Positions 3,858 to 63,300 of a stretch of 64,000 bases of DNA are shown one piece after another. Position 1 is the stretch's first letter; each line of letters begins with the position of its first letter. The notes below the pieces were generated by a model. The model was not told the origin of the DNA. It saw only the letters and a program-made list of their open reading frames with translations, and searched no databases. Made by a program: the position numbers and the translations under genes. The stretch is from Gammaproteobacteria bacterium (GTDB lineage Bacteria; Pseudomonadota; Gammaproteobacteria; Burkholderiales; Rhodocyclaceae), in NCBI GenBank assembly GCA_018828385.1, contig JAHJVE010000004.1, positions 1 through 64,000 on the forward strand, read 5' to 3'.

Positions 3858-3897
3858 CCCACGGTCAACCGGAAAAAAACACAAAAAACGAGAACAG
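3858..3897 (+). repeat. Dispersed 38-bp repeat, copy 1 (diverged 3' half)
   Basis: The head CCCACGGTCAACCGG and the first A-tract are intact. The GGCC/AAAATT half is degraded to an A-rich tract. It sits between the ETF-QO gene and the acetate-permease pair. Confidence 0.8.
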
Positions 3898-3935
3898 CAC
3901 AGCCGTATCAACTACCCATCAATTCAGGAGGGATC

Positions 3936-4250
3936 ATGTCTCAACCCAATATCCAGGCAAGGATCCGGAGCAATCCGAAATTTGCCGAAATGGTCGGCAA
4001 GCGCACGCGCTTTGCGATCATCCTTTCATTCGTCGTGCTGGTGCCTTACTACAGCTTCATGATGATCACCGCCTTCAATCCGGCCTGGCTTGCCCAGCCG
4101 ATCAGCGAGGGCAGCATCATCACCCTCGGCTGGCCGATCGGCGTCTTCCTTGTCGTCGGCGCCTGGCTGACCACCGGCATCTACATCAGCCGCGCCAATG
4201 GCGAATTCGATGCGCTCAACGAACAGATCCTCCGGGAGTCCGCCAAATGA
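3936..4250 (+). CDS. yjcH: DUF485 inner-membrane protein (YjcH-like)
   Basis: This 104-residue protein has two predicted membrane helices ([19 protein letters not shown] and a [20 protein letters not shown] region), the layout of DUF485. DUF485 genes almost always precede acetate/solute:cation symporters, as here. The ATG at 3936 has a strong AGGAGGG upstream. It overlaps the next gene by 4 bp (ATGA), implying translational coupling. Its role is probably assistance to the permease, which is known only by association. Confidence 0.9.
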
Positions 4251-5914
4251 AGCGCTCACTCATCGCCCTCGCCGCCGGCTGTCTGCTCGCCTTCGCCGCC
4301 ATCGCCGCTCCCGGCACGCTGGAAGGCGTCCAGAAGCAGCCGATCAACGTCAGCGCCATCGCCATGTTCCTGGTCTTCGTGCTGTTCACCCTCGGCATCA
4401 CCTGGTGGGCCTCGTCCCGCAACAAGTCCACCGCTGACTTCTACACCGCTGGCGGCGGCATCACCGGCTTTCAGAACGGTCTGGCCATTGCCGGCGACTA
4501 CATGTCGGCTGCCACCCTGCTCGGCCTGACCTCGCTGGTTTACGCCAAGGGCTTCGACGGCTTCATCTACACCATCAGCTTCTTCGTCGGCTGGCCGATC
4601 ATCCTTTTCCTGATGGCCGAACGCCTGCGCAATCTTGGCAAATTCACCTTTGCCGACATCGCCTCCTACCGTCTCGACCAGAACCGCATCCGCACTTTTG
4701 CCGCCTTCGGCTCGCTGACGGTTGTCTGCTTCTACCTCATCGTCCAGATGGTCGGTGCCGGCCAGCTCATCCAGCTCCTCTTCGGTCTGGAATACACCTA
4801 CGCCGTGATCGCCGTCGGCCTGCTCATGATGGTTTACGTCACCTTCGGCGGCATGACCGCGACGACCTGGGTGCAGATCATCAAGGCCTGCCTGCTGCTC
4901 GGCGGCGGCACGACCCTCATGCTGCTCGCCTTCAGCCGTTTCGATTTCTCCTTCACCAACCTGTTCACCCAGGCCGTTGCCGCCCACAAGTCGGGCATCG
5001 CCATCATGGCGCCGGGCAAGCTGATGGCCGATCCGGTCTCCGCCGTGTCGCTGTCGCTGGCCCTGCTTTTCGGCACCGCCGGCCTGCCGCACATCATGAT
5101 GCGCTTCTTCACCGTGCCGAACGCCAAGGAAGCCCGCAAATCGGTGTTCTTCGCCACCGGCTTCATCGGTTTCTTCTTCCTCGTCGTGATCATCCTCGGC
5201 ATTTCGTCCATCGTCATCGTCGGCCAGGATCCGCAATTCTTCGAAGGCGGCGTCATCGGCGGCAAGCTGATCGGCGGTGGCAACATGCCGGTCATGCACC
5301 TGGCCAAGGCGGTTGGCGGCGACGTTTTCCTCGGCTTCCTGTCGGCGGTCGCCTTCGCCACCATCCTCGCCGTCGTTTCCGGCCTGGCCCTGGCTGGCGC
5401 TTCGGCCATCGCCCATGACCTCTACGCCCGCGTCATCAAGAAGAATCAGGCGACCAGCGCCGAGGAAATGCGCGTCACCAAGATCGCCTCGGTCGGCATC
5501 GGCCTTGTCGCCATCCTGCTCGGCCTGCTCTTCCGTGATCAGAACATCGCCTTCCTGGTCGCGCTGACCTTCGGCGTTGCCGCTTCGGTCAATTTCCCCA
5601 TCCTCATCCTGTCCATGTACTGGAAGGGCCTGACCACTCGTGGCGCCCTGTGGGGCGGCATTGCCGGCCTGCTGTCTGCAGTCACTCTGGTCATCCTGTC
5701 GCCGGCCGTCTGGGTCAAGGTGCTGGGCAATGCCCAGGCCATCTTCCCCTACGACCACCCGGCCATCATCTCGATGACCACGGCTTTCCTGGTCACCTGG
5801 CTGGGCTCGGTCACCGACAAGAGCGCCCGCGCCAGCAGCGAAGCGGACGCCTTCGAAGAGCAGTACATCCGCGCCCAGACCGGGCTCGGTGCCGCCGGCG
5901 CCCACGCGCACTAG
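4247..5914 (+). CDS. actP: Cation/acetate symporter
   Basis: This 555-residue sodium:solute symporter family protein has an N-terminal signal-like segment ([20 protein letters not shown]) and about 13 hydrophobic helices. It carries the ActP-typical [20 protein letters not shown] and [18 protein letters not shown] motifs. It imports acetate and possibly glycolate or other short monocarboxylates. The ATG overlaps the DUF485 stop. A strong terminator follows at 5967. Substrate is inferred from the pairing with DUF485 and motif similarity. Confidence 0.93.
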
Positions 5915-9159: not shown

Positions 9160-9169
9160 GGCCGGCCCG

Positions 9170-9208
9170 ATTTCGTTTTTCAGCCTTTTTCCGGGTTGAC
9201 CGTAGCAA
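9170..9208 (-). repeat. Dispersed 38-bp repeat, copy 2, overlapping the 3' end of the ClpX-like gene
   Basis: Read on the minus strand it starts TTGCTACGGTCAACCCGG and ends GAAAT. Its first half is translated as the last residues and stop codon of the ClpX-like gene (9180). Confidence 0.88.
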
Positions 9209-10193
9209 TCTCGGCGCGCTCGAACAGCGAGCGGATGACGACCCGGCGGATGCCGGGATTGTCCGGTACGGCGTACATCACGTCGGTCATCATCTCCTCG
9301 AAGATGCCGCGCAGGCTGCGCGCCCCGGCCTTGTACTCGATGGCCAGCTCGGCCATCTGGCGGAAGACGTCGGGGGCGACCTGGAGATCCACGCCGTCGA
9401 CCGCCAGCATGGCGCGGAACTGGCGGTAGATGGCGTTCTTCGGCTCGGTCAGGATGCGCACCAGCATGTCCTGGGAAAGATCGTGCAGGCGGGTGACGAT
9501 GGGCAGGCGGCCGGCGAATTCGGGGATCAGGCCGAATTCGAGCAGGTCGGTCGGTTTGACGCGGGCGTTGAGGCGTTCGAGGATTTTCTGGTCTTCGCCG
9601 TCGGCGGTCGAAATGAAGCCGAAGGTGTGCGTCCGGGTCAGGATGTGGTCGAGGCCGACAAAGGCGCCGCCGCAGATGAACAGGACGTTGGTGGTGTCGA
9701 TGTGGCGCCCGTCCTTGAGCCGCACCGGCGCGCCTTCCATGATCTTGAGCAGGGCGTGCTGGACGCTTTCGCCCGAGGTGGCGCGGGCCTGGCCGCCGAT
9801 GGCCTTGAGCTTGTCGACTTCATCGACGAAAACGATGCCACGCTGGGCTCGTTCGATGTCGCCGTTGGCGCGGTCAATCAGGCGATGCAGGATGGCTTCG
9901 ATCTCGTCGCCGACAAACTGCGTCTGGGCCAGCGAAGTGGCGTCGGCGGTAACGAAAGGCACATCGAGAATGCGCGCCAGCGTGTCGCAGAGCAGGGTCT
10001 TGCCGGTGCCGGTCGGGCCGATGAGCAGGATGTTGCTTTTGGTCAGTTCGACGCTGTCGACCGCAGCATTTGCCGCCATGCGCCGGTAGTGGGCGTAAAT
10101 GGCCACGGCCAGCGTGCGCTTGGCATCTTCCTGACCGATGACGTGTTCGGAAAGCTGGCGGACGATTTCGCTGGGTTTGAGCAGCAATGACAT
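9180..10193 (-). CDS. ClpX-like AAA+ unfoldase lacking the N-terminal zinc-binding domain
   Basis: The 337 residues align with the AAA+ core of ClpX: EHVIGQEDAKRTLAVA, Walker A GPTGTGKT (about 65-72), Walker B IVFVDEVDK, and the sensor region EFGLIPEFAGRLPIV. The C-terminal subdomain has GARSLRGIFE. The four-cysteine zinc-binding domain of canonical ClpX is absent. The start at 10193 is supported by GGAGGA 7 bp upstream; longer frames would add an unrelated leader. Where ClpX has its IGF ClpP-docking tripeptide, this protein reads FGF, so ClpP binding is possible but unproven. The last residues (ATVNPEKG) come from the dispersed repeat. Probably a paralogue, with the main clpX elsewhere. Confidence 0.85.
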   Translation of the reverse strand: MSLLLKPSEIVRQLSEHVIGQEDAKRTLAVAIYAHYRRMAANAAVDSVELTKSNILLIGPTGTGKTLLCDTLARILDVPFVTADATSLAQTQFVGDEIEAILHRLIDRANGDIERAQRGIVFVDEVDKLKAIGGQARATSGESVQHALLKIMEGAPVRLKDGRHIDTTNVLFICGGAFVGLDHILTRTHTFGFISTADGEDQKILERLNARVKPTDLLEFGLIPEFAGRLPIVTRLHDLSQDMLVRILTEPKNAIYRQFRAMLAVDGVDLQVAPDVFRQMAELAIEYKAGARSLRGIFEEMMTDVMYAVPDNPGIRRVVIRSLFERAEIATVNPEKG

Positions 10194-13172: not shown

Positions 13173-15350
13173 ATGCATACAAAAACATCGGGGGCGATGC
13201 GGCAAGCATTGTCGGGCGGGCGTGGTGCGACGCGCCAGGCGATCCGGTTGCCGGTCATGGCAGCCTGCGCGCTGGCTGTATCAGGCGCCTTTGCCGAAGA
13301 GCCGGCTATCAGGCTGGACGAGATTTCGGTCACGGCGACGCGCGAGGCCCGTGCTTCGGCCGATGTGCCGCAGGCCATTGCCGTGGTCGGCAAGGAGGCC
13401 CTGGCCGACAAGAAAATGTTCAACGTCAAGGAAGCCCTGCAGGACATCCCCGGTGTCCTGATTGACAGCAAGAATGGTGGTTTCGACGCCCGGCTGATCA
13501 TTCGCGGCGCCGGACTCAAGGCGGCCTATGGCATCCGCGAGATCATGGTGCTGCGCGACGGCGTGCCGCTCAGCGATCCGGACAGCTTCACGCGGCTGGA
13601 TTTTGTCGATACCCAGGACATCGAGCGCATCGAAGTCGCCAAGGGGCCGGGCAACCTGTTCGCCACGGGCAGCACCGGCGGGGCGATCCAGATATTTTCC
13701 AAATCGGTATTTGACGACAAGGCGAACAGCGCGAAAGTCGGCTTCGGCAATCAGGGAACGCAAAACTATCACCTGCGCTACGGCGGCAAGATCTCGCCGG
13801 ATCAGGCCCTGGCCATTACCTTCACCCATCGTCAAGTCGACAACGACTGGCGCTACTGGAACACCTTCGATACCACCCAGCTGTCCCTCAAGCACGGCCT
13901 GATCCTCAACGACGCGGATATTCTCGAAAGCGAGATTTCCTACGCCGAGTCGAACATGCAATTGCCCGGCGCCATGGACAATACGGCGGCCAATGGCTAC
14001 CTGTTCAACCGCTTTCTCGACAGCGGCAAACAGGAGGGGACTTCCGAGGCCTGGAAAAATTCGGGGCGCTATTCGAAGGTGGTGTTCTTCAATTCCCGTC
14101 TCGAAATGCAGCGCGGCGACTTTACCTTCAAGCCGCGGCTTTACTACAACACCTGGTATCACTATCACCCGGTCACCGGCATCATCAACGAGACGGAAAA
14201 CTGGGTCTGGAACCTCGGCGCCGATCTCGAGGCCAATTACAAGCATCGCCAGGGTTCGCTGGTCGGTGGGCTGACCGTCCGCCAGGAGCGCATCCCCGAT
14301 TCGCGCAAATACGAATACCGCGATGTGACGACCATCGCCGGCGGCCCGCAGGCCGGGCGCATCACGGCGACGCTGTCGGACGCGAAGGGGGCGCTGGCCG
14401 AAATCGACAATGCCACGACCTTGCTCACCGGCGTCTATGTTCAGGAGTCCTGGCGTCCGAGCGAGCGCTGGATCGTCGATCTCGGCATGCGCTACGACGT
14501 CGTCAACTACGACGACGACAGCTACCAGTTGCGCAAGTACGACTACGCAACCGGCAAGTATGTCGCCGGCGACGGTCGGACGGTGACCAACAAAACCTTC
14601 AATCTGCTCGCCCCGAAACTGGCCGCCAGCTACCGCCTGAGCAACCGGCTCAATCTGTTTGCCATGGTTGCCCAGGCCGGGCAGATGCCGTCGTCGGGCG
14701 AGTTGTCGGCCAATCCCGGACTCGACGCGCCGTTGTCGACCAATTACGAATTCGGCCTGAAAGGGCGCGGCGAGAACTGGCAGTTCGATACCAGCGTCTA
14801 TTTCAATCCGGTCGAGAAAGAGATCGTCCAGCAAAGCAACGGCGGCGTCACCAATTACGTGAACGCCGGGCAGACCGAGAAATTGGGCTTCGAGTTTGCC
14901 GGTCGCATGGCCGTGGCGCGGGGCTGGGAAATCGGTGGCCATTATGCCTACGCCGACTACAGCTATCGCGAATTCAGCGAGCCGGTCCGCGTTGGCGCTG
15001 CTACGGTCAACCAGGATAGAGCCGGCAAAACGCTGCCCTTTGTTCCCCAGCATCAGTACGGCGTTTTCGTGGCCTGGAAACATCAAGGCTGGCGGGCCAG
15101 GGTCGGCGCCAACACCTGGGGCGAATACTGGCTGGACAACGCCAACACCGAGAAATACAAGGGCTGGTCGTGGGTTACCAACGCCTCGGTGGGGTACCAG
15201 ATTGGCCAGCATTCGCTGACCGTGAATGCCGACAACCTGTTTGATCAGTACTACGCCGCCGAGGTCAAGAAGGACACCACCGGCAAGGTGACCTACACCG
15301 CAGCGGCGCCGCGCACGCTCATGCTGACCTACCGCTACGATTTCCGCTGA
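13173..15350 (+). CDS. TonB-dependent outer-membrane receptor
   Basis: This 725-residue receptor has a signal peptide ending near AVSGAFA. A TonB-box-like segment (DEISVTATRE) and a plug domain follow, with GVLIDSKNGGF, IRGAGLKAAYGIREIMVLRDG and IERIEVAKGPG. The 22-strand barrel ends in an aromatic C-terminus (LTYRYDFR). It imports a metal chelate or similar ligand across the outer membrane using TonB energy. The three following genes are tightly linked and suggest metal acquisition with electron transfer. The ligand (iron, copper or other) cannot be read from the sequence. Confidence 0.93.
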   Translation: MHTKTSGAMRQALSGGRGATRQAIRLPVMAACALAVSGAFAEEPAIRLDEISVTATREARASADVPQAIAVVGKEALADKKMFNVKEALQDIPGVLIDSKNGGFDARLIIRGAGLKAAYGIREIMVLRDGVPLSDPDSFTRLDFVDTQDIERIEVAKGPGNLFATGSTGGAIQIFSKSVFDDKANSAKVGFGNQGTQNYHLRYGGKISPDQALAITFTHRQVDNDWRYWNTFDTTQLSLKHGLILNDADILESEISYAESNMQLPGAMDNTAANGYLFNRFLDSGKQEGTSEAWKNSGRYSKVVFFNSRLEMQRGDFTFKPRLYYNTWYHYHPVTGIINETENWVWNLGADLEANYKHRQGSLVGGLTVRQERIPDSRKYEYRDVTTIAGGPQAGRITATLSDAKGALAEIDNATTLLTGVYVQESWRPSERWIVDLGMRYDVVNYDDDSYQLRKYDYATGKYVAGDGRTVTNKTFNLLAPKLAASYRLSNRLNLFAMVAQAGQMPSSGELSANPGLDAPLSTNYEFGLKGRGENWQFDTSVYFNPVEKEIVQQSNGGVTNYVNAGQTEKLGFEFAGRMAVARGWEIGGHYAYADYSYREFSEPVRVGAATVNQDRAGKTLPFVPQHQYGVFVAWKHQGWRARVGANTWGEYWLDNANTEKYKGWSWVTNASVGYQIGQHSLTVNADNLFDQYYAAEVKKDTTGKVTYTAAAPRTLMLTYRYDFR

Positions 15351-19724: not shown

Positions 19725-19766
19725 AAATGGGCGTCTTGCCGTGCGGCAGACGCCCATTTCATTTTT
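19725..19766 (+). terminator. gpmI terminator, fused to repeat copy 3
   Basis: A long stem (AAATGGGCGTC and GACGCCCATTT, then TGCC/GGCA) encloses GTGC with one bulged T. The T-run after the stem is the A/T end of repeat copy 3. Confidence 0.85.
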
Positions 19767-19793
19767 GGCTGTTTTTCCGGTTGACCGTAGCAA
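19756..19793 (-). repeat. Dispersed 38-bp repeat, copy 3
   Basis: The minus strand reads TTGCTACGGTCAACCGG, A5, then CAGCC and AAAAATGAAAT. It lies between gpmI and a convergent small gene. Confidence 0.9.
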
Positions 19794-19813
19794 AGCGGTC
19801 GGTGATCGAAAAG

Positions 19814-20469: not shown

Positions 20470-20498
20470 AAAAAAAGAAGCCCGCACTGGGCGGGCTT
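20470..20498 (-). terminator. Rho-independent terminator of the candidate small RNA
   Basis: An 8-bp stem AAGCCCGC/GCGGGCTT is followed, reading the minus strand, by C and seven T. Confidence 0.85.
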
Positions 20499-20530
20499 AA
20501 ATCCATTTCTTGGAGGAGATGGAGGAGACA
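20470..20530 (-). ncRNA. Candidate ~60-nt small RNA with two CUCCUCC motifs
   Basis: A minus-strand promoter (20537-20565) predicts a start near 20530. The transcript begins with two tandem CUCCUCC motifs about 9 nt apart, complementary to strong Shine-Dalgarno sequences. It ends in a hairpin (AAGCCCGC/GCGGGCTT, loop of five bases, 20478-20498) followed by CT7. No ORF fits. Anti-Shine-Dalgarno small RNAs with such C/U-rich loops are known in other proteobacteria. Existence and function here are inferred. Confidence 0.6.
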
Positions 20531-24557: not shown

Positions 24558-24604
24558 GGCAACAGAGGCTTGCGTTCGGTTTGCTGGCGAGGTGGGGGCG
24601 GGTG

Positions 24605-24642
24605 ATTTCAATTTTGGTCATTTTTTCCGGTTGACCGTAGCA
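24605..24642 (-). repeat. Dispersed 38-bp repeat, copy 4 (near-consensus)
   Basis: The minus strand reads GTGCTACGGTCAACCGG, A6, TGACC, AAAATTGAAAT. It lies between the divergent AraC and icmF genes. Confidence 0.92.
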
Positions 24643-24669
24643 CTGTATCACCTTGGCGGAATTTGCACG

Positions 24670-31501: not shown

Positions 31502-31618
31502 TGGCGTTCCGGCCTGGAGTCGGGGCTAACTAAGCAAAGGTCATCAGGGTATCCGAATCGGGAAGCGACATACCGTCGACCATTTCACGCCTTGTGTCAT
31601 GTTGCGTTGGTTCGGGCC

Positions 31619-31656
31619 ATTTCGATTTTGGCCGATTTTGCCGGTTGACCGTAGTA
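31619..31656 (-). repeat. Dispersed 38-bp repeat, copy 5
   Basis: The minus strand reads TTACTACGGTCAACCGG, CAAAAT, CGGCC, AAAATCGAAAT. It lies directly at the 3' end of the Crp-like gene, in inverted orientation to copy 6 at that gene's 5' side. Confidence 0.9.
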
Positions 31657-31657
31657 A

Positions 31658-32332
31658 TCAGTCGCCGAAGCTGCGCAGCCCGTCGAGATCGAGAATATTG
31701 ATGCCGCCGTACTCGCTGCGCACCAGCCCGGCATCTTCGAGCACCTTGAGCGCCTGATTGGCGCGCTGTCTGGAAACGCCGGCCAGATAACCGAGTTCTT
31801 CCTGCGAAATCTGCAGCAGGCGGTTGGTGCCGGGGTAAAGCACGGGGTTGAACAGGGCGGCCAGGCCGCGCGCGATGCGGGCGTCGGTGTCGAGCATGCG
31901 CTCGTTTTCGATCATGCCGATGAACTGGCCGAGGCGTTCGTTGAGCTGGGCGATCATGTAGCGGTTGAACGGAATGCTGTGGTCGAGCAGCCACAGGAAG
32001 GTGGCGCGGCTCATGAAGGCGACGCGCGTTTCGCGCAGGGCCATGACGTCGTAGCGACGCGGCTCGCTCTTGAGCAGCGAGCCTTCGCCGAACCAGCCGC
32101 CGCTGCTGATGCCGGTCAGCGAGGTGGTCTTGCCGGTCGTCCAGTGGCTGGCCATCTTGCCCAGCCCGTCGATGATGCCCATCCAGTAATCGACCGGCTC
32201 GCCCTTCATGCAGATGAAGGCGCCCGGCGCGAAGCTGCGCTCGAAGGTGCCGGCGATGGCCTTGGCCATTTCTTCCGCACTCAGCGCCGGCCCCCAGACG
32301 GAGGTGCGCAGCAGTTCCTCAGCGTTTTTCAA
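31658..32332 (-). CDS. Crp/Fnr-family transcriptional regulator
   Basis: The 224 residues comprise a cyclic-nucleotide-type beta-barrel (GAFICMKGEPVDYWMGIIDG, GGWFGEGSLL) and a C-terminal winged helix with ISQEELGYLAGVSRQRANQA. No FNR-type N-terminal cysteines. The start is TTG at 32332 with GGAAA upstream; an internal ATG is 21 codons later. The gene is bracketed on both sides by copies of the dispersed repeat. Confidence 0.9.
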   Translation of the reverse strand: MKNAEELLRTSVWGPALSAEEMAKAIAGTFERSFAPGAFICMKGEPVDYWMGIIDGLGKMASHWTTGKTTSLTGISSGGWFGEGSLLKSEPRRYDVMALRETRVAFMSRATFLWLLDHSIPFNRYMIAQLNERLGQFIGMIENERMLDTDARIARGLAALFNPVLYPGTNRLLQISQEELGYLAGVSRQRANQALKVLEDAGLVRSEYGGINILDLDGLRSFGD

Positions 32333-32379
32333 TGATCATTTCCGGATGATGTGCCGAACCGCGATTATAGGCGGAGGCT

Positions 32380-32416
32380 TCCACGGTCAACCGGGAAAAA
32401 CGGCCAAAATTGAAAT
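32380..32416 (+). repeat. Dispersed 38-bp repeat, copy 6
   Basis: It reads TCCACGGTCAACCGGG, A5, CGGCC, AAAATTGAAAT, a near-consensus copy between two minus-strand genes. Confidence 0.92.
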
Positions 32417-32423
32417 CGACCGA

Positions 32424-38118: not shown

Positions 38119-38158
38119 AGGTGGGGGCGGCTTGGCCGCCGGTGGGAGTTGGGGGTGT

Positions 38159-38196
38159 TCCCACGGTCAACCGGGGAAAATGGCCAAAATTGAAAT
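38159..38196 (+). repeat. Dispersed 38-bp repeat, copy 7
   Basis: It reads TCCCACGGTCAACCGGGG, A4, TGGCC, AAAATTGAAAT. It lies 40 bp after the kinase gene and, with copy 8, brackets the PIN/ImmA module in direct orientation. Confidence 0.92.
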
Positions 38197-38368
38197 GACG
38201 TGGGCGGGCTGTTGTTCGGCCGAAGCAGACCTTGGGCCTCAGCCGAAAATCCGTCGGAAATTTGCTGGTTAGCGGTCATGTAGCCGCAATCGCGAAAATC
38301 GTCAGCAGCGAAGGGCAGGCTTGAGCGTTTGCTTGAGATGTCGCCGAGCAGGCGATGGCAGCACTTGA

Positions 38369-40288: not shown

Positions 40289-40361
40289 TGGTGCAAAGCG
40301 GACGTTGCCGTTCAGATCGAGGAAAGACTCCTTCGGCCGAATTGCAGCGCGTTTCCGATTC

Positions 40362-40397
40362 CTGCGGTCAACCGGAAAAAATGCCCAAAATTGAAAT
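40362..40397 (+). repeat. Dispersed 38-bp repeat, copy 8
   Basis: It reads CTGCGGTCAACCGG, A6, TGCCC, AAAATTGAAAT. It separates the AbiEi remnant from the YjjJ-like gene. Confidence 0.9.
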
Positions 40398-40456
40398 GTC
40401 GCGGGGAAACCCAGGCATCTGTCTCGGATGGTTGAAGCCAGGCGTCGGCAGGGTTT

Positions 40457-41796: not shown

Positions 41797-41857
41797 GTAG
41801 TCGTGGGGTGGCCTGCCGTCACGCCAATTTTTGCGGCTATCGGCCGGAATGGCGGTT

Positions 41858-41894
41858 CCTACGGTCAACCGGGAAAAACGGCCAAAATCGAAAT
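41858..41894 (+). repeat. Dispersed 38-bp repeat, copy 9
   Basis: It reads CCTACGGTCAACCGGG, A5, CGGCC, AAAATCGAAAT. It lies between the divergent yjjJ and ligase genes. Confidence 0.92.
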
Positions 41895-42108
41895 GACCTG
41901 ACGCCAAGCCAGGTGAATGAATTTGGCCGTTCCGAAAATATTTCGCACATTGTCCGCCGGATGACATTCAGCCCCGTCGTCGACGCCTAGACTCCGTCTC
42001 ACACTGAATCATTTCCCCGTTGCAAGCTTGGTGTAAGGCGACGGTAGCGACAATGGTTCAAACGAACGTCAGACCGCGAACAATGAGTCGCGGCGGAGGA
42101 GACTAAGA

Positions 42109-44076
42109 ATGCCCACGCAGGCGAATTTCGCCGCGCTGGATGGTTTGCATACCTTCCCGCGGCTACTGTTTCATCACGCTAGCATCCGGCCGAACGCGCC
42201 GGCCATGCGCGAAAAATACCTCGGCATCTGGCAGACCTGGACCTGGTCCGACGTCGGCGAACGCGTCCGGGCGCTGGCTTGCGGTCTGGCCTCGCTCGGT
42301 TTCAAGCGCGGCGACAACCTGGCCATCATTGGCGACAACCGGCCGCACCTTTACATGATGATGGCCGCCGCCCAGTGCCTCGGCGGCGTGCCGGTGCCGC
42401 TCTATCAGGACGCCGTGGCCAACGAAATGCTCTTCGTGCTGCAGGATGCCGGCATCCGATTCGTGGTGGTCGAGGATCAGGAGCAGGTCGACAAGATGCT
42501 GGAAATCCAGGATCAGGTCGGCACGCTCGAACACATCATCTACGACGACCCGCGCGGCATGCGGCACTACAGCCAGCCCTTCCTGCACGACATCCATGAA
42601 CTCATGGAAATGGGCCGGATTCACGACCGCAACCATTCCGACTTTCTCAATGCTGAAGTCGAGCAGGGGCACTACGACGACATCTCGGTGATGCTCTACA
42701 CCTCGGGCACCACCGGCAAGCCGAAGGGCGTTTGCCAGACGCACGCCGCCTTCATCGCCGCGGCGCAGGGCGGGGTGCAGGTTGACAAGCTGGGCGCCGA
42801 TGGCGACATCCTGTCCTACCTGCCCATGGCCTGGGTCGGCGACCACCTGTTCTCCTACGCCCAGGCGCTGGTCGCCGGTTTCACCATCAACTGCCCGGAA
42901 TCGGGCGACACGGTGATGTCCGACCTGCGCGAGATCGGCCCGACCTGCTATTTCGCGCCGCCGCGTGTTTTCGAAAGCCTGCTGACCTCCGTGATGATCC
43001 GCATGGAAGACGCCGGCCAGATCAAACAGAAAATGTTCCATTACTTCATGGCGGTGGCCAAGCGTTGCGGGGCCGACATCCTCGACGGCAAGTCGGTCGG
43101 TTTCGGCGACCGCTTGCAGTACTGGCTCGGCAACCTGCTGGTCTATGGCCCGCTGCGCAACGTCCTCGGCATGAGCCGCATCCGCGTCGCCTACACGGCC
43201 GGCGCCGCCATCGGCCCGGAGCTCTTCCGCTTCTACCGCTCGATGGGCATCAACCTCAAGCAGTTCTACGGTCAGACCGAAACCTGCGCCTACGTTTGCC
43301 TGCAGCCGGACGGCCAGATCAAGTTCGATTCCGTCGGTCAACCGGCCCCGGGCGTCGAAATCAGGATCGCCGACAACGGCGAAGTGCTGGTCAAGGGGCC
43401 GATGCTGCTCAAGGAATACTACAAGCGCCCGGATGCGACGGCCGAGTCGATCAATGCCGACGGCTACTTCATGACCGGCGACGCCGGCTTCCTCGACGAG
43501 GACGGCCACCTCAAGATCATCGACCGGGCCAAGGACGTCGGCAAGCTGTCGAACGGTGCGATGTTTGCCCCGAACTACATCGAGAACAAGCTCAAGTTCT
43601 TCCAGCACATCAAGGAAGTCGTCTGCTTCGGCCACGACCGCGACATGGTCTGCGCCTTCATCAACATCGACGTCAGCGCCGTCGGCAACTGGGCCGAGCG
43701 CCGTGGCATCGCCTATTCGGGCTATGCCGACCTGGCCGGCAAGGCGGAGGTGCTGGAGCTGATCCGCGAATGCGTCGAACAGGTCAATGCCGACCTGGTG
43801 CACGACAGCATGGTCGCCGACTCGCAGATCCATCGCTTCCTCGTCCTGCACAAGGAGCTGGACCCCGACGACGACGAGTTGACCCGGACGCGCAAGGTGC
43901 GCCGCAACTTCGTCGCCGAAAAATACAAGGTGCTGATCGACGCGCTCTATGAGGGCAAGGCCAATCAGTTCATCGAAACCGAGGTCAAATTCGAGGATGG
44001 TCGCCGTGGCAAGGTATCGGCCGACCTCAAGATCATCGATGCCAAGACCTTCCCGATCGTGAAAAAGGCAGCCTGA
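42109..44076 (+). CDS. AMP-forming acyl-CoA synthetase (long-chain/aryl type)
   Basis: This 655-residue ANL-family ligase has the AMP-binding motif YTSGTTGKPKG around residues 197-207, then FYGQTETCAYV, a TGDAGFLDEDGHLKIIDRAK hinge and the C-terminal domain. It activates a carboxylic acid to its CoA thioester. It heads a branched-chain-type ABC transporter operon (3 bp to the next gene), so its substrate is probably the imported acid. Family resemblance to FadD15-like long-chain ligases does not settle the substrate. Confidence 0.9.
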   Translation: MPTQANFAALDGLHTFPRLLFHHASIRPNAPAMREKYLGIWQTWTWSDVGERVRALACGLASLGFKRGDNLAIIGDNRPHLYMMMAAAQCLGGVPVPLYQDAVANEMLFVLQDAGIRFVVVEDQEQVDKMLEIQDQVGTLEHIIYDDPRGMRHYSQPFLHDIHELMEMGRIHDRNHSDFLNAEVEQGHYDDISVMLYTSGTTGKPKGVCQTHAAFIAAAQGGVQVDKLGADGDILSYLPMAWVGDHLFSYAQALVAGFTINCPESGDTVMSDLREIGPTCYFAPPRVFESLLTSVMIRMEDAGQIKQKMFHYFMAVAKRCGADILDGKSVGFGDRLQYWLGNLLVYGPLRNVLGMSRIRVAYTAGAAIGPELFRFYRSMGINLKQFYGQTETCAYVCLQPDGQIKFDSVGQPAPGVEIRIADNGEVLVKGPMLLKEYYKRPDATAESINADGYFMTGDAGFLDEDGHLKIIDRAKDVGKLSNGAMFAPNYIENKLKFFQHIKEVVCFGHDRDMVCAFINIDVSAVGNWAERRGIAYSGYADLAGKAEVLELIRECVEQVNADLVHDSMVADSQIHRFLVLHKELDPDDDELTRTRKVRRNFVAEKYKVLIDALYEGKANQFIETEVKFEDGRRGKVSADLKIIDAKTFPIVKKAA

Positions 44077-49161: not shown

Positions 49162-49305
49162 AAGTTCGCAGTGCGGCCACCATGGCGGCGTTGTCGGCCG
49201 GCTTGTTGGCAGGAGCCAACGGCGCCGGCCTCCGCCTTGCCCTGATGGCCTACTTTGCGAACTTTGGCTTGTCCTTGCGTTGCCGCAATAAACCCAAATC
49301 TGAAA

Positions 49306-49343
49306 TGCTACGGTCAACCGGAAAAAACGGAGAAAAATGAAAT
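49306..49343 (+). repeat. Dispersed 38-bp repeat, copy 10, forming the start region of the next gene
   Basis: It reads TGCTACGGTCAACCGG, A6, CGGAG, AAAAATGAAAT. The usual GGCC has become GGAG, which serves as Shine-Dalgarno for the ATG at 49342 formed by the repeat end plus G. Confidence 0.9.
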
Positions 49344-50571
49344 GAGCTATTACGACCCGCTCGAGACCCGCGATCCGGATGAGCGCGAGGCGGACTTGAT
49401 GGACAAGCTGGCGCGCCAGGTGGCGCATGCCAAGGAAACGACGCATTACTATTTTCAGACGCTGGCCGGGGTCAATCCCTTCGAATGTGCGTCGCGCGAG
49501 GCGCTGGCCCGGCTGCCGTTGACCCGCAAGCGCGACCTGATCGAGCTGCAGAAAAAGACGCCGCCTTTCGGTGGTCTGAATTCGCTGCCGCGCGGCAAGG
49601 CCAAGCGGGTGTTCGCTTCGCCCGGGCCGATCTACGAACTGCAGGGCAAGGACATGGACCCCTGGCGCCTGGCCCGCGTGCTGTACGCCGCCGGCTTTCG
49701 CGATGGCGACCTGATCCACAACTGTTTTTCCTACCATTTCACGCCGGGCGCTTTCCTCATGGAAGGCGGCGCCCGCAAGCTCGGCTGCGCGGTTTTCCCC
49801 GGCGGTACCGGGCAGACCGAGCAGCAGGTGCAGGCCATGGTCGATCTCAAGCCGGAGGGCTATGTCGGAACGCCGTCTTTCCTGCGCATCATCGTCGAGA
49901 AGGCCGAGGAAATGGGCGCCGACATCAGTTCGCTGCGCAAGGCCTGTGTTTCCGGCGAAGCCTTGCCCGGCATCACCCGGCAGTGGCTCAAGGAGCGCGG
50001 CATTTCGGTGCGCCAGTGCTATGCGACGGCTGACATCGGCGCCATCGCCTACGAGACCGAGGCAGAAGAGGGGCTGGTCGTCGAGGAGGAAATCCTCGTC
50101 GAAATCGTTCGTCCCGGCACCGGCGATCCGGTCGAGCCGGGCGAGGTCGGCGAAGTCGTCGTCACTACCTTCAACCCCGATTACCCGCTGATCCGCTTCG
50201 CCACCGGCGACCTGTCGGCCATCATGCCCGGTCGTTCGCCCTGCGGGCGCAGCAATATCCGGCTCAAGGGCTGGATGGGCCGGGCTGACCAGACGACCAA
50301 GATCAAGGGCATGTTCGTGCACCCCGAACAGGTGGCGCAGATCGCCGCCCGCCATCCGGAAATTCACCGCATGCGCCTGGTCGTCGACAACCCCGGCGGC
50401 CAGGACCGCATGGTGCTGCATTGCGAAATCGAAGCCGGTCACGAGGCGCTGGCCAAATCCCTGGTCGATAGCCTGCGCGAAATGACCAAATTGCGCGGCG
50501 ATGTGGCATTTGTCACACCCGGGGGCTTGCCCAACGACGGAAAGGTGATCGAAGATAGCCGGATCTATTGA
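49342..50571 (+). CDS. Phenylacetate-CoA ligase-like AMP-dependent synthetase
   Basis: This 409-residue protein belongs to the PaaK-like ANL group: AGFRDGDLIHNCFSYHFTPG, FPGGTGQTEQQVQ, RFATGDLSAIM, and the hinge GRADQTTKIKGMFVHP. It is shorter than typical PaaK (about 430) and lacks the classical SSGTTG loop: at the corresponding place it reads SPGPIYELQG. The reaction may thus differ or be lost. The ligase follows the ABC importer and is probably part of the same pathway for an aromatic or related acid. Confidence 0.82.
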   Translation: MSYYDPLETRDPDEREADLMDKLARQVAHAKETTHYYFQTLAGVNPFECASREALARLPLTRKRDLIELQKKTPPFGGLNSLPRGKAKRVFASPGPIYELQGKDMDPWRLARVLYAAGFRDGDLIHNCFSYHFTPGAFLMEGGARKLGCAVFPGGTGQTEQQVQAMVDLKPEGYVGTPSFLRIIVEKAEEMGADISSLRKACVSGEALPGITRQWLKERGISVRQCYATADIGAIAYETEAEEGLVVEEEILVEIVRPGTGDPVEPGEVGEVVVTTFNPDYPLIRFATGDLSAIMPGRSPCGRSNIRLKGWMGRADQTTKIKGMFVHPEQVAQIAARHPEIHRMRLVVDNPGGQDRMVLHCEIEAGHEALAKSLVDSLREMTKLRGDVAFVTPGGLPNDGKVIEDSRIY

Positions 50572-51746: not shown

Positions 51747-51758
51747 GTGGCCGGGGCT

Positions 51759-51795
51759 TGCTACGGTCAACCGGAAAAAGCGGCAATTTTGAAAT
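51759..51795 (+). repeat. Dispersed 38-bp repeat, copy 11
   Basis: It reads TGCTACGGTCAACCGG, A5, GCGGC, AATTTTGAAAT. It lies between convergent genes and is inverted relative to copy 12 on the far side of the sugar dehydrogenase gene. Confidence 0.9.
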
Positions 51796-51828
51796 TCCGT
51801 CGCCAGGCAGCGGGGCTGAAACGCCAGG

Positions 51829-52947
51829 CTAGTCAGCCACCAGCCTGAGCAGTTGCCCGTTGCTTTCGTCGGTCAGCAGGTAGATCGTGCCGTCCGGCGC
51901 CTCGCGGATATCGCGCACACGCTGGCGCAGTCCGGTCAGTAATTTTTCTTCGCGAACGACACGCGTCCCATCCAGCTCCAGTCGGGCCAGATAGTCGAAC
52001 TTCAACGAGCCGACGAGCAGGCTGCCGCGCCAGGCCTTGCCGTAGCGCTCGCTACGCACGAAGGCCAGGCCGGATGGCGCTATCGACGGCACCCAGTAAT
52101 GCAGCGGCTGCTCCATGCCGGGCTTTTTCGTCAGACCGTCGCCGATGGCGCCGCCGCCGTAGTTTTCACCATAGGTAATGACCGGCCAGCCGTAATTCTT
52201 GCCCGGCTCGGGGCGGTTTATCTCATCGCCGCCCTGCGGGCCGTGCTCGTGCATCCACAACCGGCCGTCCGGGCCGAGCGTGGCACCCTGGCTATTGCGG
52301 TGGCCGTAGCTCCAGATTTCGGGCAGCGCGCCGGGCTGTTTGACGAAAGGATTGTCGGCGGGAACGCGGCCATCCTTGCCGATGCGGATGACCTTGCCAT
52401 GATGGTTGTCGAGCTTCTGGGCGTCAGCCATGCGCGAACCGCGCTCGCCTAGGGTCAGGAAAAGCTGGCCATCGTCGGCCTCGACGATGCGGCAGCCGAA
52501 ATGCAGGCGGCTGCTGACCTTGGGCGTTTGCCGGAAGATCGTCGTGACTTTCTCGAGGCGTTTCGCGTCGTCGGAAAGGCGGGCTGCAGCGAGCGCCGTC
52601 GAATTGCCGCGACCCTGCGCCGCCGCTTCGGCGTAGCAAAAATAGATCATCCGGTTGCGGGCAAAATCGCGGTCGGCCACGACATCGAGCAAGCCGCCCT
52701 GGCCGGTCACTTCAACTGCCGGCAGACCTTCCACCGGGGCGCCGACCTTGCCGTCGGCGGCGATTACGCGCAGCCGGCCGGGACGTTCGCTGACCAGCAT
52801 CCGGCCATCGCCGATGAAGGCCAGCGCCCATGGATGCTCAAGTCCGCGGCTGACGACTTCGACGCGCAATTCGCCGCCCTGCGCCGCCAGCGGCAGCGCA
52901 AGGGCCACGAAGAGCATGGCGATTCGGCGGAGAGGGCGTTTGAGCAT
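51829..52947 (-). CDS. PQQ-dependent aldose sugar dehydrogenase (YliI/sGDH family)
   Basis: This 372-residue beta-propeller protein has a signal peptide (IAMLFVALALPLAAQGG) and the family signature LWMHEHGPQGGDEINRPEPG, followed by KNYGWPVI. Periplasmic enzymes of this group oxidise aldoses with PQQ as cofactor. The ATG at 52947 is formed at the end of repeat copy 12. A TTG start inside the repeat (52962) would add five residues. Confidence 0.9.
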   Translation of the reverse strand: MLKRPLRRIAMLFVALALPLAAQGGELRVEVVSRGLEHPWALAFIGDGRMLVSERPGRLRVIAADGKVGAPVEGLPAVEVTGQGGLLDVVADRDFARNRMIYFCYAEAAAQGRGNSTALAAARLSDDAKRLEKVTTIFRQTPKVSSRLHFGCRIVEADDGQLFLTLGERGSRMADAQKLDNHHGKVIRIGKDGRVPADNPFVKQPGALPEIWSYGHRNSQGATLGPDGRLWMHEHGPQGGDEINRPEPGKNYGWPVITYGENYGGGAIGDGLTKKPGMEQPLHYWVPSIAPSGLAFVRSERYGKAWRGSLLVGSLKFDYLARLELDGTRVVREEKLLTGLRQRVRDIREAPDGTIYLLTDESNGQLLRLVAD

Positions 52948-52982
52948 TTCAGTTTTGGCCAATATTTCCGGTTGACCGTGGG
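52946..52982 (-). repeat. Dispersed 38-bp repeat, copy 12, forming the start codon of the sugar dehydrogenase gene
   Basis: The minus strand reads TCCCACGGTCAACCGG, AAATAT, TGGCC, AAAACTGAAAT. The final AT plus G is the ATG of the downstream gene. Confidence 0.9.
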
Positions 52983-52984
52983 AA

Positions 52985-53854
52985 TCAGCCGGCGATCTTG
53001 CCGCGCCCGAACAAGCCCTTGACGGCTTCCTGCAGGTCGGCCGGGAGGACGATGACCTTGGCGTTGTCCTTCTCGCCCATGCGTTCCAGCGCGGCGATGT
53101 ACTTTTCGCCGAGCATGTAGGACATCGGCCCGGTCTTGTCGCCGATGGCGGCGGTGATGCGGCGGATCGCCTCGGCCGAGGCTTCGGCCAGCATGACCTG
53201 GGCGTTGGCGTCGCGCTTGGCCGATTCGAGCCGGGCTTCCGCCTCGAGAATGGCCGACTGCTTGGCGCCTTCCGAGCGGGTGACGACAGCCTTGCGTTCG
53301 CGCTCGGCGGCGGCCTGCATTTCCATGGCCTTCTGCATCGACTGCGAGGGCTTGATGTCCTGGATTTCCACCGACTTCACGGTCAGGCCCCAGTCGACAG
53401 CCTCGTCGGCGATGCTCTCACGCAGCCGGGCCTTGATCTTGTCGCGCGAGGAAAGCGCTTCATCGAGTTCCATTTCGCCGACGATGGAACGCAGCGTGGT
53501 CATGATCAGGTTGCGGATCGCTTCCGAAAAATCCGTCACGCCATAAACCGCCTTGACCGGATCGGTGACCTTGATGAAGGCGATGGCATTGGTCAGGATC
53601 ACCGCGTTGTCGCGGGTGATGACCTCCTGCTCCTGGACGTCGAGGATGATGTCCTTGGTCACCAGCTGGTAAGCCACCTTGTCGAGGTAAGGGATGACGA
53701 TGTTGAGGCCGGGCTTGAGCGTGCCGTGGTATTTGCCGAGCCGCTCGACGATCCATTCCTCGCCCTGCGGCACGATGCGCACGCCCTTGGCGATGGTGAC
53801 GACGACAAAGACCAGTATGGCCAGCGTGACGACGAATCCTGCATTCATATCCAT
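52985..53854 (-). CDS. qmcA: SPFH-domain stomatin-like protein (QmcA/YbbK-like)
   Basis: This 289-residue protein has an N-terminal membrane helix (VVTLAILVFVVVTIAKG), a band-7 domain starting VRIVPQGEEWIVERLGKY, then helical AEA repeats and a GLFGRGK end. It is paired with an NfeD gene 12 bp upstream, the standard stomatin-NfeD arrangement linked to membrane-domain or protease control. Confidence 0.94.
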   Translation of the reverse strand: MDMNAGFVVTLAILVFVVVTIAKGVRIVPQGEEWIVERLGKYHGTLKPGLNIVIPYLDKVAYQLVTKDIILDVQEQEVITRDNAVILTNAIAFIKVTDPVKAVYGVTDFSEAIRNLIMTTLRSIVGEMELDEALSSRDKIKARLRESIADEAVDWGLTVKSVEIQDIKPSQSMQKAMEMQAAAERERKAVVTRSEGAKQSAILEAEARLESAKRDANAQVMLAEASAEAIRRITAAIGDKTGPMSYMLGEKYIAALERMGEKDNAKVIVLPADLQEAVKGLFGRGKIAG

Positions 53855-54307: not shown

Positions 54308-54362
54308 GTTTTTCTCCTTTGCCCGGCGAGTATTTCGGGTTTGCCGGGCAGGGTCAAGGCGG

Positions 54363-54400
54363 ATTTCGGTTTTGGCCATTTTTTCCGGTTGACCGTAGTG
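54363..54400 (-). repeat. Dispersed 38-bp repeat, copy 13
   Basis: The minus strand reads CACTACGGTCAACCGG, A6, TGGCC, AAAACCGAAAT. It lies between the divergent NfeD and AEC genes and, with copy 12, brackets the NfeD-qmcA operon in direct orientation. Confidence 0.92.
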
Positions 54401-54440
54401 GTCGGCAAATGATGCCCATTGCAGCGATTAAAATGCGCCG

Positions 54441-59477: not shown

Positions 59478-59616
59478 CCGCCGATTTTATGCGATCAGCG
59501 CGGAACTCGCCTTTTCTCTTGCTTGAGGGGACTGTTTGGCCGAGCGCTTAGCGAGCGGGGGAGGATTGAATACGCGGTGTTGGGATGGATTGCCGGGAGA
59601 GCCAGCAACCGCGACG

Positions 59617-59653
59617 ATTTCAATTTTGGCCGAAATTTCCGGTTGACCGTGGG
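59617..59653 (-). repeat. Dispersed 38-bp repeat, copy 14
   Basis: The minus strand reads TCCCACGGTCAACCGG, AAATTT, CGGCC, AAAATTGAAAT. It lies between two minus-strand genes in an otherwise featureless 266-bp gap. Confidence 0.92.
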
Positions 59654-59743
59654 ATTGGTGAAAACGCTGAGTTGAGGTGCCAAAACGCTATTCGAGCCTG
59701 GTGCCTTAGTTTTGCCGTAGCGATGTTGTGCATCGCCGAATGG

Positions 59744-60106: not shown

Positions 60107-60297
60107 TTATCACTCCTCTTGGAAAGGCTGTGCGCGAACGCTCGCAAATGAGTTATTGCTGCGCTATCTGGGGCGAGCCCACGAAGGCTCGTTTCTCTAG
60201 TGGTTCCGTCAGGCAGATACACAACGAGCGTATCGCCAAATATCTCGTATTCAGCACGGATGTCGATACCGTTGTGGGTGAAGGTAATCTCAGTCAT
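60103..60297 (-). CDS. Small hypothetical protein, first of a two-gene unit
   Basis: This 64-residue protein is mostly beta: TEITFTHNGIDIRAEYEIFG, then TLVVYLPDGTTRETSL, followed by a short helix. It is translationally coupled to the 120-residue gene. The size and arrangement recall a toxin-antitoxin or phage-derived pair, but no motif supports that. Confidence 0.55.
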   Translation of the reverse strand: MTEITFTHNGIDIRAEYEIFGDTLVVYLPDGTTRETSLRGLAPDSAAITHLRAFAHSLSKRSDK

Positions 60298-60380
60298 TGA
60301 TACTCCGTATTTTCGCCATGAATTCTCAGGGCTTCAGCATACGGAGCGGGTGAACTAATGTCGAGTGGGTATGGCGTGGT

Positions 60381-63300
60381 TCAAGCGGACTGCCGCAACG
60401 CTTCCCGCCGGCCTGCCGCTTTTGTGGCCGCCTCGCTGCGCACCGGTCCAAATCCGCGTACCTCGGCCGGCCAGTTGGCCAGTGCCACGAGTTCCGGGTT
60501 TGGGCTGCGCCCGCCGATGAAGTCGAGATCGCTTTCGTAGTCGGCGAGTAGCTGGCGGTCCAGCTTGTTTTCTTCGCTGTTTTTCCACGGATCGAGCCAG
60601 CTGCCGCGCCAGCCCCGGGCTTTGGCCATGAGGCTGAATACCGGCAGCACCCAGGCGCCGAAGCGGATTTTCTTTGGGCGGCCGTTCGGGCCGGGGCGGC
60701 TCAGGCCGGGTGGGGCGAGGTGGAAGCTCAGGCGCAGGTCGCCGTCGAAGCGTTCGTTCAGGCTCTTGAGAAAATCGGTTTGCGCGTACAGGCGGGCGAC
60801 TTCCCAGGCGTCTTTGGGGGCGAGCAGGCGGGCGTATTGGGTGGCGACGGCGCGGGTCAGGTCGTCGTTGCCGAGGCGGCGGATGGATTCGACGCGGCTG
60901 GCGTAGCGGGCGGCGAGGTCGGCGTCCTGGTAGGCGGTGAGGTGTTCGACGCGGCTGGCGATGAGTTCGTCCAGCGTTTGTTCCGGCAAGGGCTGGCCGG
61001 TGAGCGGGCCGGCGATTTTGGCGACTTTTTCCGGGTCGACCGCAGCACGCCGGCCCCATTCGAAAGCCTGGCGGTTGGCGTCGACGGCGGCGCCGTTGAG
61101 GACGATGGCGCGGTCCAGCGCGGCGGCGGAAACGGGCACCAGGCCGAGTTGCCAGGCGTAGCCGAGGAGCAGCATGTTGCCGTAGAGGGCGTCGCCCATC
61201 AGGCGGCTGGCGAGGTGCTGGGCGTCGATGAACTGGACGTGATCGGCGCCGAGGGTTTCGGCCAGTTGGGTCTTGAGCCCGGCCAGCGGGAAGTGCCAGT
61301 CGCGGTTGCGGGTGAAGTCGGCGGTTGGCGTATCGGTGCAGCTGACGACGGCTCGCGTGCGGCCTTCGAGCATTTTCGCCAGGGCTTCGGTGCTGGCGCT
61401 GACGACGAGGTCGCCGCCGAGTACGGCGTGGGCTTCGCCGGTGGCGATGCGGGCGGCGTGGATGTCTTCCGGGCGGTCGGCGATGCGCAGGTGGGAGAAG
61501 ACGGCGCCGTACTTTTGCGCCAGACCGGTCATGTCGAGGGTCGAAATGCCCTTGCCGTCGAGGTGGGCGGCCATGCCGATGAGGGCGCCGAGGGTGATGA
61601 CGCCCATGCCGCCGACGCCGGTGATGAGGAGGTTGTAGGGCTGGGTCGTGGCGGGCAGTTTGGGCGATTTCAAAATTGGCCAATTTTCGGCGTTGACCGT
61701 GGGATTCGACCCTTTTTTCGGTTTGCCACCTTCGATGGTCACGAAGCTCGGGCAGAAGCCTTTGACGCAGGAGAAGTCCTGGTTGCACGACGACTGGTCG
61801 ATCTGGCGCTTGGTGCCGAAGGTGGTTTCGACCGGCACGATGGACAGGCAGTTGGATTGCACCGAGCAGTCGCCGCAACCTTCGCAGACGGCTTCGTTGA
61901 TGACGACGCGCTGGGCGATGGCCGGCATCTTGCCGCGTTTGCGCCGGCGCCGTGCTTCGGTGGCGCAGACCTGGTCGTAGATCAGGACGGTGACGCCGGG
62001 TTCTTCGCGCAGTTCGCGCTGGACGGTGTCGAGTTCGTCGCGGTGGCGGATCGGCACGTTGGGGGCGAGGTCGGTGATCTCGGCGTATTTGGCCAGATCG
62101 TTGGTGACGATCACCGTGCGGCTCACCCCTTCCGCTTCGAGCTGGCGGGTCAACCGGGCGACGCTCAGGATGCCGTCGACGGGCTGGCCGCCGGTCATCG
62201 CCACGGCATCGTTGTAGAGAATCTTGTAGGTGATCGGCACCTTGGCGGCGATGGATTGCCGGATGGCGAGGATGCCGGAGTGGAAATAGGTGCCGTCGCC
62301 GAGGTTGGCGAAGATGTGTTTTTCGCTGGTGAAGGGCGCCTGGCCGACCCAGGGCACGCCTTCGCCGCCCATGTGGGTGAAGGTTGAGGTACTGCGGTCC
62401 ATCCACGTCACCATGTAGTGGCAGCCGATGCCGGCGACGGCGCGCGAGCCTTCCGGGACACGGGTCGAGCTGTTGTGTGGGCAGCCCGAGCAGAAATGCG
62501 GCTTGCGTTCGGCGAGGACGATGGGGGTCAGCGCGGCTTTCTGCTTGGCTTCAATCAGGGCGAGGCGGGCGGCGATGGTCGGCGAGGTGAAGAAGCGGCC
62601 GATCCGTTCGGCGATGACGCGGGCGATGGTGGCGACCGGCAGTTCGCCGGTGGCCGGCAGCAGCCAGTGGCCTTCGCTCTGCATTGGCGTCCACTCGCCG
62701 ATTTCGTCGAACTTGCCGATGACGCGCGGGCGGACATCGTCCTTCCAGTTGTACAACTCTTCCTTGAGCTGGTATTCGAGCAGTTGGCGCTTTTCCTCGA
62801 CGACGAGGATTTCCTCCAGCCCTTCGGCAAAGTGGCGGACGCCTTCCGGTTCGAGCGGCCAGACCATGCCGACCTTGAACAGCCGGATGCCGATTTCGCC
62901 GGCCAGCGCATCGTCGATGCCGAGTTCGTCGAGGGCCTGGCGGACATCAAGGTAGCTCTTGCCGGCAGTCAGAATGCCGAGGCGCGGGGCGGGCGAATCG
63001 ATGATCAGCTTGTTCAGCCCGTTGGCCCGGCAGTAGGCCAGCGCCGCGTAAAGCTTGTGGTTGAGCAGGCGGGCTTCCTGAACCAGCGGCGGGTCGGGCC
63101 AGCGGATGTTGAGGCCGTCCGGCGGCAATTTGAAATTTGGCGGAAAAATCGGGTTGACCGTAGCAATGTCGATGCTGACCGAGGCCGAGGTCTCGACCGT
63201 GTCGGCCAGCGCCTTGAAGGCCACCCAGCAACCGGAATAGCGGCTCATCGCCCAGCCGTGCAGGCCGAAATCGAGGTATTCCTGGACGTTGGCCGGGTAG

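Follow-up and report, generated by a model that had tools for sequence, protein, structure and literature searches.

What kind of element recurs about every 4 kb, inside and between genes, along a chromosome of the Rhodocyclaceae? The question is raised by positions 1 to 64,000 of contig JAHJVE010000004.1 (GenBank assembly GCA_018828385.1), a 64-kb stretch referred to here as the window, in which an earlier note made from the letters alone had pointed out a short, dense, dispersed repeat. The reading favoured here, with a probability of about 0.68, is that the repeat is a putative DNA uptake sequence for natural transformation. Its layout resembles that of the uptake signal sequence (USS) of Pasteurellaceae around another core, and substitution together with biased recombination would account for its spread. 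Taken together, a strong consensus that arose by substitution, copies within genes, an island free of copies, the lack of a transposase, dialects and repeated loss form the signature of uptake sequences known from Pasteurellaceae and Neisseriaceae (passages of PMC1626085, PMC7811141 and PMC3630211).

A discrete population of copies

The window contains the exact string GGTCAACCGG 15 times where 0.15 occurrences are expected, and none of 100 shuffles reaches this count; GGTCAACC is present 19 times against 1.78 expected. A search with a 42-column profile at a working cut-off of 13 bits returned 19 window copies, 13 of them intergenic and six in predicted genes, with eight on the forward strand and 11 on the reverse strand. 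Exact occurrences of GGTCAACCGG at 43336 and 62148, both in predicted genes, fall below this cut-off. The earlier note was right about a genuine dense repeat, about its presence in both orientations and in convergent, divergent and tandem contexts, about the two head variants CTACGG and CCCACGG, and about one copy that keeps only GGTCAAC (61666-61707). Its tally of 14 intergenic and at least two intragenic copies missed the weak coding ones at 1864, 14996 and 61009.

The profile was then applied to 464 kb (the window plus 400 kb) of the 4.30-Mb source genome, with genes predicted by a home-made gene caller (coding fraction 0.82-0.93 per contig). At 13 bits or more, 114 matches were found, 75 of which score at least 40 bits. 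The number hardly depends on the threshold (116 matches at 6 bits or more, 112 at 16 or more), and the reversed 464-kb sequence, scanned at 12 cut-offs between 6 and 40 bits, never gave a profile match. The score distribution is that of a discrete population of copies. The density of about 1 per 4 kb extrapolates to about 1,050 copies per genome. The genome-wide scan that the earlier note had called for, run as a strict count with a 33-bp pattern and at most 3 mismatches, gave 320 matches with none in the control, far above chance and well beyond the window. For the 9-base core ACGGTCAAC, 94 copies were counted; its 27 one-mismatch neighbours average 6.6, and the most frequent of them, ACGGTCGAC, has 30. 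Because the profile was trained on the dialect of the source genome, other dialects are under-counted.

The consensus of 46 good copies from the 464-kb sample reads GATTSCYACGGTCAACCGG, followed by W6, one variable base N, GGCC and AAAAWTGAAAT. On the left the element reaches as far as GATTSCYACGG, which gives a length of about 41 bp rather than the 38 bp proposed earlier. Profile columns 0-7, CGGTC[A/G]AC, are almost invariant, and the core of the source-genome repeat is CYACGGTCAACC. The AT fraction is at least 0.90 in columns 12-15 and 23-26, two tracts lying about 11 bp, or about one helical turn, apart; a third, weaker tract occupies columns 29-32. Exchanges between A and T are frequent inside the tracts. 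This pattern suggests that the site may be recognised in its core and, along the AT tracts, through DNA shape. Folding of eight strands from six copies revealed no consistent hairpin, and as a group the strands were no more stably folded than shuffled sequences (z between -1.94 and 0.77).

Within the 464 kb, 61 of the 114 copies lie inside predicted genes, 30 in tandem gaps, 17 in convergent gaps and six in divergent gaps; the description 'mostly between genes' therefore holds for the window and not for the larger sample. Per base, intergenic DNA is nevertheless denser in copies than genic DNA. Among gaps of at least 40 bp, copies are densest in the convergent ones, with 17 in 5.0 kb; tandem gaps have 30 in 40 kb and divergent gaps six in 14 kb. 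Head-to-head pairs occur in two of the convergent gaps. This enrichment, with its paired copies, counts in favour of an ordinary regulatory element, be it a transcription factor operator, a promoter part, an RNA regulator or a terminator. Such an element is nonetheless highly improbable, since more than half of the copies are in genes, on both strands, about 1,000 sites are too many for a regulon, and the copies neither fold consistently nor match Rfam at any position in the window. An RNA regulator was rejected: the sole Rfam match in the window, to RF02278 (betaproteobacteria toxic small RNA, 54.5 bits; 20471-20530, reverse strand), is not at a copy. A part-time role as terminator would be compatible with uptake; passages of PMC13020248 report such a role for both USS and the DNA uptake sequence (DUS) of Neisseriaceae.

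Orientation is balanced over all copies (56:58) and, for the 58 that lie wholly inside genes, does not differ significantly between the gene strand (34) and the opposite strand (24; P=0.24). Of the same-strand coding copies, 27 of 34 share one reading frame, and 26 of these 27 read (T/A)V(N/D) within peptides that are otherwise different. Among the host genes are comEC and two genes that we take, from their sequences, to be recJ and mtfA. The constraint accordingly acts on DNA. Coding copies have a lower median score than intergenic ones (37.8 against 56.5 bits), as coding constraint predicts.

Intervals below 500 bp make up 4.5% of the total, where random placement would give 11.6%. The longest copy-free stretch in the sampled part of the source genome spans 44 kb (contig C1, 69-113 kb), mostly at GC 0.51-0.56. 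It is mostly foreign-looking: a low-GC island at about 73-113 kb carries integrase-, DNA methyltransferase-, HipA- and large ATPase-like frames, recognised by eye only, and is perhaps a defence island. Twenty evenly spaced 20-kb stretches of a second genome, G085, contain 79 copies, and 17 of the 20 have at least one; the three copy-free stretches have GC 0.55, 0.41 and 0.58. Depletion from acquired DNA was found in the 44-kb source stretch and, as a small sample, in these three. The GC of 0.41 belongs to G085 C1:980001-1000000, all other 19 stretches having GC 0.55-0.64.

The G085 copies also bear on a single-strand signal for recombination or segregation, like Chi or the FtsK-orienting polar sequences (KOPS). 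The presumed lagging strand carries 48 copies and the other 31 (P=0.07, with the origin assumed at base 1), and Chi has a copy number in E. coli similar to that of the repeat. The bias is not significant, however, Chi and KOPS are far shorter than 41 bp with AT tracts, and the palindromic dialects described below carry no direction, which leaves this explanation very improbable.

Origin of the copies and distribution in the genus

Coding copies can be compared with orthologues that lack them. Fourteen coding sites were eligible, 13 of which have motif-free orthologues (profile score below 5) and one of which has no orthologue; 3 of 217 orthologues were left out since they do not span the element. 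At the 13 sites, 109 of the 123 motif-free orthologues align without gaps, and the 14 gapped ones show gaps of 1-6 bp plus one of 24 and one of 27 bp, the longest; none comes near the length of the element. Motif-bearing orthologues are gapped in 12 of 91 cases. Many of the 123 share ancestry and hence are not independent. The lower identity inside the element is partly circular, as the label follows the score, whereas the absence of gaps is not. At five coding sites around comEC, followed through up to about 50 genomes, motif-bearing sequences align with motif-free relatives, and graded intermediate scores occur. The coding copies tested arose by substitution, not by insertion. In a like test at the protein level, in which 24% of alignments had gaps, Redfield and colleagues showed that the USS of Haemophilus did not arise as insertions (passages of PMC1626085).

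In place of substitution, a small self-copying mobile element could be considered: a repetitive extragenic palindromic sequence or bacterial interspersed mosaic element (REP/BIME), a miniature inverted-repeat transposable element (MITE) or something similar. Dispersed, similar copies in both orientations and a patchy presence in the genus would suit it. For the coding copies tested it is refuted by the gap test with its graded intermediates, by the lack of a consistent hairpin, and by a transposase search in which the Y1/RAYT family (PF01797) had no match in 8 of 15 motif-rich genomes, including the source, and 1-2 in the other 7. Positions are also shared with the relative G002: both flanks are present there for 10 of the 16 window copies compared, and all 10 keep the element in place, one by its core half only, often with diverged intergenic flanks. 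A mobile element is accordingly the least probable of the explanations considered. The earlier note had proposed to read variable positions as mobile or uptake-related and fixed positions as regulatory. This rule is not supported: positions are largely shared, yet the coding copies arose by substitution, half of the copies are genic, and there are more of them than an ordinary regulon would have; the uptake-related option that it contained fits the reading favoured here.

Among 76 genomes of Azonexus/Dechloromonas, a broadened pattern matches 160-457 times in 15 and 0-67 times in the other 61. Across the order, 300 genomes were sampled, 297 of them outside the genus; four of the 297 have one match each, and two have one in the reversed control. 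The repeat is restricted to one genus, whose name we infer, and is at chance level elsewhere in the order sampled, so that an order-wide element was rejected. The first 80 of at least 102 motif-bearing public stretches are titled Azonexus, Dechloromonas, Azonexaceae, Rhodocyclaceae, Betaproteobacteria or Proteobacteria, and all are metagenome-assembled. A phage- or plasmid-borne element was rejected, as plasmids and phages gave no match to the 42-base consensus and viral contigs no exact match to a 27-base pattern.

A midpoint-rooted tree was built from comEC-neighbourhood proteins of 53 genomes, leaving out G002 (split comEC) and G094 (no locus). All 13 motif-rich genomes included fall in one clade of 20 (support 1.0). 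The motif-poor members of this clade are G035 (2 matches), G060, G077, G098 and G099 (1-2), G069 (20) and G005 (65). G035 is placed among motif-rich genomes with support 1.0, its pairing with G003 as sisters being weak (0.78). The motif has apparently been nearly lost in nested lineages, with several losses inside one genus.

Outside the motif-rich clade the core differs. The palindrome TTTTNRCGGTCGACCGYNAAAA, allowing 2 mismatches at most, has 156 sites in G061, 143 in G011, 98 in G092, 79 in G031, 56 in G010 and 50 in G008, with a control of 0 in each, and 8 in the source genome; in G061, G011, G031 and G010 it is flanked on both sides by A/T runs. Inside the clade, G034 has the dialect CYGCGGTCRAC in 8 of 8 copies, and G029 and G083 have mostly AATGCTACGGTCGGC. 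A k-mer search found TGCGGTCAAC 5 times in G014 against 0.25 expected, and other over-represented 10-mers in G016 and G005, for instance CCTGTTCGGC in G016 (9 against 0.62).

Probable DNA uptake and the main rival reading

In the proposed mechanism, a minor pilin of the type IV pilus would bind the CGGTC-centred core of double-stranded DNA at the cell surface. The AT tracts, which lie to one side with a spacing of about one helical turn, would help the DNA to bend as the retracting pilus draws it inward. One strand would then be imported by ComEA, ComEC and DprA and passed to recombination. Since fragments with a better match would enter more often, biased recombination would favour match-improving substitutions, until good copies in both orientations populate genes and intergenic DNA throughout the genome. 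The source genome encodes a ComEC of 772 aa, a ComEA-family protein scoring above the cut-off and DprA, and its minor-pilin operon, on contig C7 at about 186 kb, contains one ComP_DUS domain (42.6 bits), one GspH domain (GspH/FimT-like) and one PilW. Features of the uptake-sequence class found here are hundreds of strong copies, coding copies in both orientations, their origin by substitution, and competence genes in the host.

Several observations weigh against uptake. ComP_DUS matches occur in 70 of the 76 genus genomes regardless of motif count, and the ComP_DUS pilin, the ComEA family and DprA are as common in motif-poor genomes; therefore no gene tested tracks the motif, and all three were rejected as candidates for doing so, being near-universal where searched. 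Three motif-rich genomes have a broken comEC, namely G002 (interrupted by about 34 kb), G029 (frame change) and apparently G074, yet full-length comEC is found in motif-poor G066, G016 and G082 (0 matches), G077 (1) and G069 (20). In G035, a comEC frame change goes with 2 motif matches and fits loss of the motif with competence; as a rule, motif loss upon breakage of comEC is not supported, since G002 and G029 do not follow it. Moreover, the repeat has about 1 copy per 4 kb, fewer than the roughly 1 per kb of USS and DUS (according to passages of PMC1626085), the overall spacing is irregular (coefficient of variation 1.18), and the palindromic dialects suit a dimeric intracellular protein equally well.

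This last point leads to the main rival, a chromosome-wide DNA-binding protein with a nucleoid-organising or segregation function. It would probably bind as a dimer on CGGTCRACCG, with A-tracts narrowing the minor groove, and its sites would be kept by selection on chromosome structure. About 1,000 sites per genome, copies in 17 of 20 evenly sampled stretches of G085, retention of the element while intergenic flanks diverge, and a palindromic core between A/T runs in four relatives all agree with it. Less readily explained are the near-absence of weak sites, as only 4 of 116 matches score between 6 and 16 bits, though higher scores are spread, and the extrapolated 560 or so coding copies, many with a shared peptide, each of which selection would have to maintain effectively. 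A dispensable uptake system would more easily undergo the near-complete loss seen in nested lineages, and the 20 G085 samples show no clustering in one chromosome region. Such a protein is judged unlikely, with appreciably more to be said for it than for the other alternatives. The probabilities assigned to uptake and to the binding protein were set as they are because competence genes and comEC do not track the motif, palindromic dialects suit a dimer, and the case for uptake is built from sequence.

With somewhat better than even odds, the repeat may represent a third, independently evolved code of self-recognition in DNA uptake, outside Neisseriaceae and Pasteurellaceae, the only families for which passages of PMC13020248, PMC5031613 and PMC4212676 name uptake sequences. 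It would have converged on the USS plan of a core with phased AT tracts, and would include dialects with a dyad core (TTTTCACGGTCGACCGTGAAAA), the receptor reading symmetrically in some species and asymmetrically in others. If so, an environmental third case with many dialects and several apparent losses would provide a natural replicate of uptake-sequence evolution, the reasons for which are still debated. Gene exchange would be predicted mainly among these bacteria themselves, and the repeat would offer a handle for transforming them.

In two relatives, G002 (C33:109525/143311) and G088 (C1:2218607/2251157), 32-34 kb separate the two parts of comEC, at about the position of residues 253-256 in the source protein, and in G018, G067, G099 and G005 only comEC from about residue 234-253 onward is present within the 20 kb read. 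The gene is possibly a recurrent integration site. The 40 kb around the split comEC of G002 contain one strong copy of the repeat, within comEC itself.

Window copies and comparison with known systems

Six intergenic window copies lie between tandem genes: 3854-3895 (forward, 46.6 bits; same position in G002), 31618-31659 (reverse, 56.9 bits), 32376-32417 (forward, 56.3 bits), 40357-40398 (forward, 61.7 bits), 52945-52986 (reverse, 59.9 bits; kept in G002 and G012) and 59616-59657 (reverse, 59.2 bits). Convergent gaps hold 19754-19795 (reverse, 45.3 bits; kept in G002), 38156-38197 (forward, 54.6 bits) and 51756-51797 (forward, 40.5 bits), the last kept in G002 and G012 despite diverging flanks. 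The divergent copies are 24604-24645 (reverse, 61.4 bits), with its core half kept in G002 and G034 and degraded in G014; 41854-41895 (forward, 60.6 bits); and 54362-54403 (reverse, 52.8 bits), which is kept in G002 and G012, partial in G034 and G029 and absent from G014, G005 and G016.

Two copies overlap gene borders. That at 9169-9210 (reverse, 53.6 bits) covers the stop and 3' end of predicted gene 9180-10193 (reverse), lies 6 bp from the gene 3' end and is kept in G002. The copy at 49303-49344 (forward, 56.2 bits) covers the start codon (ATG) of predicted gene 49342-50571 and a GGAG that resembles a Shine-Dalgarno sequence; it is kept in G002, G012 and G034 and partly in G014, and in motif-free G016 much of the right half is recognisable, with the left part gapped. 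The G005 sequence aligned to window position 49311 carries GGGTTTACTACGC-like letters ending in GCGTAAAAA after CCGG. The same arrangement, directly after CCGG, is seen in copies near source contig C1 31387, 113483 and 172087, and these letters may be another short sequence, itself dispersed, that lies within the element.

The weak coding copies are 1864-1905 (reverse, 23.5 bits) in predicted gene 409-2187 (forward), where G002 is ungapped and motif-free, 14996-15037 (forward, 21.3 bits) in predicted gene 13257-15350 (forward), and 61009-61050 (reverse, 27.5 bits), ungapped in all five relatives shown. The last lies in predicted gene 60381-63839 (reverse) together with two strong reverse-strand copies. 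One, at 61666-61707, scores 51.4 bits, against 49.8 in G002, 41.8 in G034, 6.2 in G014 and none in G016; the other, at 63127-63168, reads ATVN and scores 50.5 bits, against 42.4, 22.0, 9.7 and none in the same genomes.

No named family was found to match the repeat, and the earlier note knew of none; searches of openly licensed PubMed Central papers found no description of the motif; most subscription journals are outside this scope, and an earlier description there is possible. REP/BIME sequences are likewise short and dispersed, with hundreds of copies per genome. Unlike those associated with a REP-associated tyrosine transposase (RAYT), the repeat has no consistent hairpin, its source genome has no RAYT (Y1_Tnp) match, and its coding copies arose by substitution.

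Points of likeness with the DUS of Neisseriaceae are the dialects that DUS show within a family and their inverted pairs linked to terminators (passages of PMC3630211). The same source describes overlapping dyad pairs in Simonsiella muelleri and binding of DUS by the minor pilin ComP, and core genes carry DUS while foreign genes do not, as cited in PMC4212676. The DUS core, GCCGTCTGAA, which passages of PMC1626085 present without flanking motifs, has no similarity to the core of the repeat.

The closest parallel is with the USS of Pasteurellaceae, from which the repeat differs in its core (CYACGGTCAACCGG against AAGTGCGGT or ACAAGCGGT), in its lower density (about 1 per 4 kb, where USS have about 1 per kb), in its unrelated lineage and in the palindromic dialects of its relatives. 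The two are alike in an unusually strong consensus, many coding copies, an origin by substitution according to the gap test, and subclade dialects (passages of PMC1626085 and PMC7811141). They also share a common plan, with two AT-rich segments to one side of the core and a spacing of about one turn between them, AT columns 12-15 and 23-26 of the repeat corresponding roughly to AT segments 2 and 3 of the USS (passages of PMC1626085).

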